A DNA stretch of 64,000 nucleotides from Xiashengella succiniciproducens (GTDB lineage Bacteria; Bacteroidota; Bacteroidia; Bacteroidales; Marinilabiliaceae), in NCBI RefSeq assembly GCF_023674465.1, contig NZ_CP098400.1, positions 1,516,801 to 1,580,800 of the forward strand. Direction: 5' to 3'. The first letter of the stretch is position 1. Each line of letters opens with the position of its first letter. The notes below the pieces were generated by a model. The model was not told the DNA's origin and searched no databases. It worked only from the letters and a program-made list of their open reading frames with translations. The translations under genes were made by a program, and so were the position numbers. Of the stretch, positions 32,044-34,600 are shown piece by piece.

Positions 32044-32928
32044 TTACTGACGGATCAGCTTTTTCGAAAGCTGATCCGCACTGGTAAGTGCCAGCGGCAG
32101 GAGAGAGGCCTTGCTTGCACGAACCGGGCAAATATCGATTCCCCCTCTTCTTGTATAGATTGTAGTCACCATTAAATCTTCAGGAGCAAAAGCATCTACA
32201 AGCCTTTTGTAAATCATCTCACAGATTTCTTCGTGAAAATGATTCTCATTTCGGATCGAAACAAGGTATTTGAGCAATGAGAGCTTATCGGGCAGCATAT
32301 TTCCCTTTATGTAAATAAAGGCACTTCCCCAGTCGGGTTGGTGGGTAATCTTGCAGTTGCTGCGAAGCAGGTGGCTTGCCACTCTCAACTCCTTTTCATT
32401 TCCTGATGAGGTTTGAAACAGGGCTGGAGTTTCCGTATATGCAACAAACTCAGTAGTTTCTATTTCAGGCAGCTCCTCGAGGAGCTGCCAGTCTGCAAAG
32501 TCAGCACCTCCTTCACTTGCATAGGCAGGAAAGAAGGTGACTATCACACTGGTTTCAAGTACTGAGGATAGATCCTTTTTGATTAGGTCTTTAACTATAG
32601 TGATACCTTCCTCGCGGGTAGAGCCAAAGCGGCTCATATTAAAGCCGTTAAGGTAAAGTTTGAAAGACTTGCTTTCAACTATTGATGGACTGTCGGCTGG
32701 GTAGATCAATTTGATAACACCTGCTACAGGCAGGCCCTTTTCGGTCAGGAAACTCAGTTCCCATGCATGCCAGACATCCACTCCGACAAAGGGGAGATTG
32801 CTGTTGTCAAGGCCATAGATCTCCCTGTTGAGGGAGCGGGGAACTGCAACCAGATACTCAGGTGAGTACTGTTGCGGGTATTCTACTCTCTGACCAAGGT
32901 ATTTACCTTCGATAGGATTCTTTTCCAT
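32044..32928 (-). CDS. queF: NADPH-dependent 7-cyano-7-deazaguanine (preQ0) reductase, long type
   Basis: Reduces preQ0 to preQ1 in queuosine synthesis. 294 residues, the long tandem-fold type. The QueF signature 'ESKSFKLYLN' (85-94), the catalytic Cys192 in 'RSNCKITHQPDW' and Asp199 are present, as is 'NHFHEEICEMIY' for substrate binding. Last gene of queC-queE-queF, with 16 bases between queE and queF. A 12-bp hairpin lies in its final codons. Presence of QueF means the pathway goes to preQ1 and tRNA queuosine, not only to archaeosine-type products. Confidence 0.95.
   Translation of the reverse strand: MEKNPIEGKYLGQRVEYPQQYSPEYLVAVPRSLNREIYGLDNSNLPFVGVDVWHAWELSFLTEKGLPVAGVIKLIYPADSPSIVESKSFKLYLNGFNMSRFGSTREEGITIVKDLIKKDLSSVLETSVIVTFFPAYASEGGADFADWQLLEELPEIETTEFVAYTETPALFQTSSGNEKELRVASHLLRSNCKITHQPDWGSAFIYIKGNMLPDKLSLLKYLVSIRNENHFHEEICEMIYKRLVDAFAPEDLMVTTIYTRRGGIDICPVRASKASLLPLALTSADQLSKKLIRQ
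32051..32078. terminator. Hairpin in the 3' end of queF, possible terminator for purL and/or queF
   Basis: A perfect 12-bp stem (32051-32062 with 32067-32078) has the loop TTCG on the plus strand. It is 13 bases past the purL stop and inside the last queF codons. No T-run follows directly on the plus strand; on the minus strand a TTTTATTT stretch starts about ten bases later. Terminator function is uncertain. Confidence 0.45.
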
Positions 32929-32944: not shown

Positions 32945-33805
32945 CTACACTCCCTGGCGGTTGCCAAAGAGGTCTATATGTATACGTGGTGAGTAGCGCC
33001 AGCCATTCCTTACTGCCATTTCCATAGTTAGTCTGGCACTTTTCCGGAGTTCTTCGGATGCCGAACCAAGGGGCATCAGGAGGATGTCGCCTGGCTTCCA
33101 GGAATGAAGCTTTCCTAAAAACTCCTCCTTGATTTCATGTTCATCTTCAGGACGTCCGATAACAAACTTAAGTTGAAAATCCTTGCCATTATTGCGGGCA
33201 AAGTCAATAAAGGACTGGATTACCTCAAGATTTTTTCGTTTCTCGGGGTGGTACTTGAAAGGACCTGACATCTGCAGTCCAAGTGCACTAAGCTTTTCAG
33301 CATCAGGATCCGAATTGCGCAGTTTAGGCGATATGCTATAGAGGTCGATAAATCCTGCAAGTTCCCTGCTAAAGATTGTTCCGTTTGTCTCTATTGAGAT
33401 ATGCAGTCCCAATTCACCCTTTATCCTTCTAGTAAGTTCTATAAGCGCATCCTTCTGCAACATGGGTTCACCTCCGGTTATTACCACGTGCTTTGTCTCA
33501 TCCAGGTTTGCTTGCAGCAGTTCCATCAGTTCGCCCACCTCAATACGCACCACCTCTCTGGTATCAAAAGAAGCAAAGGGTGTGTCGCAGCGGCTGAATG
33601 AGCCGTCTTCCAGTCTCCAGATACATCTGAGATTACATCCGGACAGTCGGATAAACAGGGAGGGCATACCCGCAAGTTTTCCTTCACCCTGGATGGTTCC
33701 CGGAACTGAAAAACCAGTTGATGGAGGTACAGGCAAGGGATTGCCATGTCTGTCCCTGGTGATTGGGAAGAGGGCTTCCCCGGCCAGAGTTAGAATCTTG
33801 TCCAT
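32945..33805 (-). CDS. queE: 7-carboxy-7-deazaguanine synthase, radical SAM enzyme
   Basis: Makes the deazaguanine ring from 6-carboxytetrahydropterin using S-adenosylmethionine and a 4Fe-4S cluster. 286 residues. The N terminus has 'FSVPGTIQGEGKLAGMPSLF', and the cluster motif is Cys57-x3-Cys61-x11-Cys73, followed by 'DTPFASF'. The usual spacing is CX3CX2C, so nine residues are inserted before the last cysteine. 'VVITGGEPMLQ' is the SAM-binding GGE motif, and 'HISIETNGT' follows. It starts 2 bases after queC, in the same operon. The function is supported by neighbours on both sides. Confidence 0.95.
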   Translation of the reverse strand: MDKILTLAGEALFPITRDRHGNPLPVPPSTGFSVPGTIQGEGKLAGMPSLFIRLSGCNLRCIWRLEDGSFSRCDTPFASFDTREVVRIEVGELMELLQANLDETKHVVITGGEPMLQKDALIELTRRIKGELGLHISIETNGTIFSRELAGFIDLYSISPKLRNSDPDAEKLSALGLQMSGPFKYHPEKRKNLEVIQSFIDFARNNGKDFQLKFVIGRPEDEHEIKEEFLGKLHSWKPGDILLMPLGSASEELRKSARLTMEMAVRNGWRYSPRIHIDLFGNRQGV

Positions 33806-33807
33806 TA

Positions 33808-34479
33808 TCAGGATTTTAGTGCAGGGTCATCAATACCGGCTTCGCTGAAGGCGCGGGCTCTAAGCAGGCAACTGTCGCACTTACCACAGGGGTTTTCTCC
33901 ACCACGATAGCAGCTCCAGGTCAGGTCGAAGGGCACACCAAGACTTAGACCCAGTTTTATCTCCTCGCTCTTCGTCATAGAGATAAAGGGAGCATGAATA
34001 GTAATGTGCCTTTTGTGCTCAGCCGCCATAACAGTGCCCTGGTTGATAGCATTTTGCATTGCATCTATAAAAGTCTGGCGGCAGTCAACATATCCTGAGT
34101 AGTCAGCCTGACTTACACCAATAAAGATGTCGCAGGCCCCTATAGCCTCTGCGTAGGATGCGGCTATCGAAAGAAAGACCATATTGCGGGCGGGAACATA
34201 AGTTACGGGAATATCGGTCCTGTTAACATCGCCATCCTCTACTTCCATATTCATGTCTGTAAGAGAAGAACCTCCCCATTGGCCAATGTTGATACTCACA
34301 ACCCGGTGCTCCGTGGCACCGGCTGCTTTGGCAAGAGCTTCAGCAGCATTGAGTTCCTTATTATGTCTTTGACCGTATTCAAAACTTAGCGTGAACAATT
34401 CATATCCTTCACTTTTGGCAAGCCATAAGGCCACCGCAGAGTCTAAGCCCCCTGATAATAGAATAACTGCACGTTTCAT
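33808..34479 (-). CDS. queC: 7-cyano-7-deazaguanine (preQ0) synthase
   Basis: Converts 7-carboxy-7-deazaguanine to preQ0 using ATP and ammonia. 223 residues. The PP-loop '[12 protein letters not shown]' (7-18) binds ATP. Four cysteines (190, 198, 201, 204) in '[15 protein letters not shown]' form the zinc site. '[19 protein letters not shown]' is typical of QueC. It leads the queC-queE-queF operon. QueD, needed for 6-carboxytetrahydropterin, is not in this cluster. A candidate preQ1 riboswitch precedes the gene. Confidence 0.96.
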
Positions 34480-34506
34480 TTTTTAAAGCTTAATGCAGCC
34501 GAACAT

Positions 34507-34546
34507 CCATAGTTTTATTTAAAGACAGGATGGTTTCGAACTGTCT
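34507..34546 (-). promoter_or_regulatory. Candidate preQ1-I riboswitch ahead of queCEF
   Basis: Read on the minus strand, a 6-bp stem (AGACAG with CTGTCT) encloses the loop TTCGAAACCATC. An A-rich tail TTAAATAAAACT is followed by ATGG, which can pair with CCAT in the loop. This is the H-type pseudoknot layout of preQ1 class I aptamers (short stem, loop with an ACC element, A-rich tail ending AAAAC..GG). It sits 10 bases past a TATCTTTG promoter box, in the leader of the operon that makes preQ1. Recognised by eye; no covariance model was run. The ATGG lies 27 bases before the queC ATG, and no terminator stem with a T-run was seen, so the mode of control is unclear. Confidence 0.6.
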
Positions 34547-34556
34547 GTTAGTTTTG

Positions 34557-34564
34557 CAAAGATA
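34557..34564 (-). promoter_or_regulatory. Candidate promoter -7 box for queCEF
   Basis: On the minus strand this reads TATCTTTG. It would start a transcript that includes the complete candidate preQ1 aptamer. Confidence 0.5.
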
Positions 34565-34578
34565 GTCTTTTAAACGGT

Positions 34579-34600
34579 AACAGGGCATAAAAGCCCTGTT
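34579..34600 (-). terminator. Terminator-like hairpin after the large secreted protein gene
   Basis: A perfect 8-bp stem, AACAGGGC with GCCCTGTT, starts 7 bases after the stop of the 1488-residue gene. The T-run on the minus strand is weak. It separates the five-gene operon from the queCEF promoter. Confidence 0.6.

Follow-up and report, generated by a model that had tools for sequence, protein, structure and literature searches.

The queC leader and its operon

Three genes of the preQ1 pathway lie in series on the minus strand of the 64,000-nt stretch of the Xiashengella succiniciproducens genome analysed here (the window). The first, queC (33808-34479, ATG at 34479), encodes 7-cyano-7-deazaguanine synthase and matched TIGR00364 with 219 bits, above the cut-off. 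It is followed by a queE-like radical SAM gene (7-carboxy-7-deazaguanine synthase, 32945-33805), for which QueE models were the best matches at 65 bits, under their cut-offs, and by queF (preQ1 synthase, 32044-32928), with 266 bits for TIGR03138 (cut-off 293) and PF14489 over its cut-off at the same place. These matches bear out the queC-queE-queF operon of the original prediction, and since queF is the final gene, the last product of the operon is preQ1. In the radical SAM motif of the queE-like product, GCNLRCIWRLEDGSFSRCDT, the gap ahead of the last cysteine is longer. Between an upstream gene of 1494 aa and the que promoter, a hairpin (AACAGGGC-TTTTAT-GCCCTGTT, 34579-34600) is probably a terminator.

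Read on the minus strand, the queC leader consists of TATCTTTG, 10 nt, AGACAG, UUCGAAACCAUC, CUGUCU, UUAAAUAAAA, CUAUGG, 27 nt and the queC AUG. TATCTTTG (34557-34564) is a -7 promoter box of the Bacteroidota type, TAnnTTTG, and the 10-nt gap between it and the stem is the distance that had been predicted. AGACAG (34541-34546) and CUGUCU (34523-34528, CTGTCT in DNA letters) are the 5' and 3' strands of stem P1, in which six of six base pairs form. The 12-nt loop (34529-34540, DNA letters TTCGAAACCATC) contains CCAU (34530-34533), the 5' strand of the second helix, P2. The A-rich strand L3 (34513-34522, DNA letters TTAAATAAAA), which measures 11 nt if P1 is taken as 5 bp, leads to the CUAUGG tail (34507-34512, CTATGG), where A34510-G34507 are the 3' strand of P2 with an AUG inside; CCAT at 34533-34530 is complementary to ATGG at 34510-34507. 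The stem, loop, A-rich tail and complementarity described from the sequence beforehand were therefore correct base for base. The 27-nt spacer before the queC start codon (34480-34506) is too short for a terminator hairpin.

At gathering scores, Rfam found two tRNAs only in the 64-kb window and nothing in the queC leader. With the threshold lifted, RF00522 (preQ1-I) ranked first among 4227 Rfam families in the leader, on the right strand and in the right register, in keeping with the predicted class, whereas RF01054 (preQ1-II) and RF02680 (preQ1-III) gave no match in the Rfam searches of the window and leader. Nowhere in the 3.1-Mb genome did RF00522 find a better site than the leader (E 0.26 genome-wide; by our own arithmetic about 1e-5 when scaled to one strand of the 200-nt leader). 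The covariance-model check proposed with the prediction thus held for family and site but nearly failed on score, since 19.3 bits is about half of the gathering score of 39 bits. The fit is poor because the A-rich strand of the RF00522 consensus is shorter and aligning the leader takes 4 inserted nt in this strand; as shown below, RF00522 does not fit the subgroup, with its CAG stem, to which the element belongs.

The folding free energy of the leader was unremarkable and by itself uninformative (z -0.82, MFE folding without pseudoknots). The MFE fold paired CGAA-AC-CAUCC of the aptamer loop and P1 with GGAUGUUCG just past the tail (34500-34537, minus strand). This complementarity was present in the window and in its nearest relative, and might represent an anti-aptamer structure restricted to the window's genus.

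Conservation and covariation among relatives

The leaders of 29 relatives of the same family were gathered through QueC, with the RNA motif not used, and 27 of them carried the motif upstream of queC. We aligned 25 aptamers, the window's and those of 24 relatives, and built a covariance model (R1) on this alignment; the model from the relatives' queC leaders scored 69.1 bits on the window, which is part of the training set. Of 71 family genomes, 62 had exactly one R1 site each, while RF00522 exceeded its cut-off in none, and queC followed the aptamer in 56 of the 57 family leaders examined. Rfam-based annotation therefore misses the subgroup nearly entirely, and for this reason under-annotation probably affects the queuosine regulons in these Bacteroidales and in the Clostridia that have this form as well.

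Both helices of the predicted H-type pseudoknot covaried clearly across relatives, the test that had been named with the prediction. P1 was paired in 99.3% of the cells of the 25-aptamer alignment; its inner four pairs were invariant, and the two outer pairs changed on both sides (A-U/C-G and G-C/A-U). The A-rich L3 between P1 and P2 was confirmed in the aligned aptamers. The window and 25/25 aligned aptamers (two with CCA) have both the UU that follows the P1 5' strand and the tail C, a motif that had also served to collect them.

A larger set of 184 distinct aptamers, for which the search pattern imposed the P1 sequence in the named-genome part and left it free in the queC-derived part, had a nearly invariant inner stem, CAG/CUG. 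L3 counted from a 5-bp P1 was 11 nt in 184/184, and UC stood ahead of the 3' strand of P1 in 184/184, the finder having allowed AC too. Loop lengths fell into classes of 11-15 nt. Among the 42 members of the 15-nt class, two additional pairs of P2 covaried nearly perfectly: loop position 9 and tail position 6 were C-G in 26, U-A in 12 and G-C in 2, and loop 8 and tail 7 were G-C in 33 and A-U in 7. Each of these position pairs was thus Watson-Crick in 40/42, which was equalled in 0 of 20000 shuffles (a figure that is not a probability, related sequences not being independent events); shifted P2 registers gave 0-2. In the shorter loop classes ACUAU goes with AUAG and AAC(A)U with A-GUU, and loops without CC mostly occur with tails without GG. 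Because loop and tail change in matching ways across relatives, we consider the CCAU-AUGG pairing real.

Of 58 family leaders, 49 had a TAnnTTTG box upstream of the stem, where shuffled sequence gave 1.8, and in 46 of the 49 it was located 5-24 nt upstream. As the box sits just upstream of P1, the mRNA probably starts at the aptamer.

Class assignment and distribution

In the published signature of type I preQ1-I riboswitches, UU follows the 5' strand, UC stands ahead of the 3' strand and the tail has a conserved C (PMC11625349); the window element shows all three. Mapping to the Carnobacterium structure (PMC8752633) places U34540/U34539, U34530, C34529 and C34512 at the ligand-site bases U6/U7, U16, C17 and C31, the last being the β-site C. 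The contacts of the Carnobacterium RNA with its two stacked preQ1 molecules (G5, U6, U7, U16, C17, C31) and the ceiling bases (C8, A12, U32) are all retained, and the complete list of type I bases (G5, U6, U7, C8, G9, A11, A12, U16, C17, C18, C31, U32, A33) is found in the window. The likeness to the Carnobacterium antarcticum type I riboswitch extends to the H-type pseudoknot, a G-C pair closing P1, queuosine genes downstream, UU after the 5' strand, a 12-nt loop, UC before the 3' strand, an A-rich L3 and the CUA tail (PMC8752633; PMC11625349). Types II and III of preQ1-I, preQ1-II (RF01054) and preQ1-III (RF02680) share the ligand and pathway, but types II and III have AC before the 3' strand, where the present subgroup always has UC.

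Differences from the Carnobacterium type I RNA were also found. P1 has 6 bp with invariant CAG/CUG inner pairs here and 5 bp there, and L3 has 11 nt here and 8 nt there, a mismatch of size that is not stated as class-defining. In the crystal, P2 is formed by G9/C10 against A33/G34 (PMC8752633), whereas the covarying Watson-Crick P2 of the present RNAs joins CC(A)U with A(n)GG, closer to the specificity C; with covariation this strong, the register of type I P2 seen in the crystal has an alternative that can be tested. Canonical RF00522 members in Clostridia genomes that also have the CAG-stem form (L307, L308) have the loop UUCG...UC, the A-rich strand, the CUA(n)GG tail and the CC/GG pairing in common with the CAG-stem RNAs, and differ in their GG/CC closing pairs, 8-nt L3 and scores of 39-52 bits, against about 18-29 for CAG-stem members. 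Considering structure and pocket bases, we file the element as a putative variant subgroup of preQ1-I type I that lies under the Rfam threshold. The guess that it might be a sequence variant holds up. A Bacteroidota example had also been expected to be of interest, but Bacteroidota, together with Chlorobiota and Actinomycetota, are among the phyla with type I preQ1-I riboswitches, and Bacteroidota are listed for type II as well (PMC11625349), so the phylum is not new for the class. For the subgroup with CAG stem and long L3, we found no description in the literature searched, and the type I alignment of McCown 2014 may contain it. It is tempting, although rather speculative, to regard these RNAs as a separate preQ1-I subtype with a pocket geometry of its own (P2 as CC(A)U with A(n)GG beside the specificity C), possibly with another stoichiometry or specificity, serving as the principal queuosine switch in several families of Bacteroidales and in many Clostridia.

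In an even sample across the order, R1 matched in 18 of 295 genomes, with strong matches in six families, and across the phylum in 3 of 395, two of them weak; the CAG-stem form is patchy outside the window's order. Elsewhere in the order, nine of ten leaders had queC or a yhhQ-type transporter gene next, and the tenth an HGD-D gene opening a que operon. RF00522 searched on 296 Bacteroidota at E<=1 returned mostly background and one real canonical member (L039). A search of viral contigs gave one match. A sequence pattern scan of species genomes found at least 120 loci, mainly in Clostridia, plus a Treponema and Bacteroidales. A gene of the queuosine set lay downstream in 120/120 of the matches listed, against 2/109 on the upstream side; some seeds of this test were drawn from the same loci, but QueD, QueE, QueF, QueT and the queuosine precursor transporter had independent identifications. 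Behind the listed matches lie queT, queD and queC, among further genes of the queuosine set. Where Clostridia genomes were tested, the CAG-stem form (about 18-27 bits there) stood side by side with canonical RF00522 members scoring 39-52 bits, both kinds in one genome. An intermediate form occurs in Oceanirhabdus (L301, approximately 434-392, minus strand), combining the stem CGCAG/CUGCG with a 9-nt L3; it scores 34.3 bits against RF00522 and 46.2 against the family model.

In five genomes, four Clostridia (L146, L169, L174, L206/L314) and one Bacteroidales (L105/L313), the aptamer heads an operon of an HGD-D gene (PF06050), a BadF/BcrA-type ATPase gene (the pair at L146:3137-4897, L314:5659-7415 and L313:6020-7767, and also in L169 and L174) and then que genes. 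QueF exceeded its cut-off in 0/5 of these genomes and in 11/12 comparison genomes; the single weak QueF match, in G757, one of the five, overlaps a FolE match. The pair is a candidate for an ATP-driven, non-orthologous replacement of QueF as preQ0-to-preQ1 reductase, and in the literature searched we found no paper connecting an HGD-D/BadF-type pair with a QueF role. A replacement of QueG or QueH by the pair was rejected, all five genomes having QueG or QueH, and on that account they seem to complete queuosine.

Proposed mechanism and alternative readings

The anatomy, conservation, covariation, promoter and operon observed at the locus make it highly probable that a cis-acting preQ1-I-type riboswitch, with the type I signature and of the CAG-stem subgroup, forms the 5' end of the queC-queE-queF mRNA, with preQ1 as the presumed ligand whose binding would lower expression. 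The model that we consider most likely is one in which the P1 hairpin forms and the A-rich strand runs along it, preQ1 would occupy the pocket between P1 and P2, and the loop CCAU would then hold the tail AUGG, closing the pseudoknot. The closed pseudoknot would block initiation of queC translation, which is the likeliest output in the window because the start codon is 27 nt past P2 and there is no terminator between them.

The same fold might serve another 7-deazaguanine (preQ0 or queuine), or hold one ligand only, since P1, L3 and P2 differ from those of the studied type I RNAs. The 11-nt instead of 8-nt L3, the invariant CAG/CUG inner pairs and a P2 with covariation between CC(A)U and A(n)GG, in extended form in 15-nt loops, are in its favour, as are the Clostridia salvage genes (a QueL-like lyase and queT) that are predicted to be controlled by the aptamer too. 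We nevertheless regard it as unlikely, because the type I pocket for two ligands retains all its α- and β-site bases, C31 and U7 included, and the operon in the window ends in queF, with preQ1 as its product.

It is more doubtful still that the aptamer acts by hiding the AUG of P2 (34510-34508), where a short leader ORF with coupling to queC would begin, in place of the start region of queC itself. In the window that AUG does open MDVRLH*, whose end is 10 nt ahead of queC, and L002, the nearest relative, has an 11-codon ORF with an end that overlaps the queC AUG. But the pattern is confined to the closest relatives, many others having CUAGG tails and no AUG; the frame and length of the ORF after the aptamer differ in near relatives (L003/L004, L009/L011, L012/L014), and the AUG is also needed for pairing with CCAU. 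Nor do we accept a leader peptide after the aptamer as a general feature: although long ORFs do turn up by position, their frames break between near relatives.

The nearly invariant CAG/CUG inner stem could also suit a non-riboswitch element at the 5' end of the mRNA, a conserved RNA or a site bound by a protein, but the covarying pseudoknot, the intact type I pocket bases and the association with queuosine genes across phyla make this very improbable. A chance stem without function, which the Rfam score under the cut-off and the ordinary folding energy might have suggested, is refuted by the comparison with relatives: the element stands in the same place, with compensatory changes, in 62 of 71 family genomes.

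For the preferred reading, a preQ1-I-type riboswitch ahead of queC, leaders form three groups by the spacing between CUA and the queC start: 12 have 3-7 nt, the window and its nearest relative have 31-32 nt, and the third group has 82-352 nt. Leaders of the first group fit direct occlusion of the start, and for the first two groups a ligand-stabilised P2 by the initiation region would be the simplest translation repressor. When locked and free aptamers were folded, no clear change of accessibility was seen at the queC start, in a run in which the tail was incompletely locked. These bacteria rarely use Shine-Dalgarno sequences, and the leaders with a start codon 3-7 nt behind the tail provide a simple system in which to study how a riboswitch controls their translation.

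The long leaders, with 82-352 nt, may work through a different platform, for instance termination. Some of them (e.g., L105) contain hairpin-plus-U-run sequences, which could terminate transcription. In the first 40 nt past the tail, many long-spacer family leaders (L003-L022) have GGGC(C)CAUG...CAUGnGCAAAAAUG in common, and this sequence could form a small hairpin beside P2, a possible expression platform.
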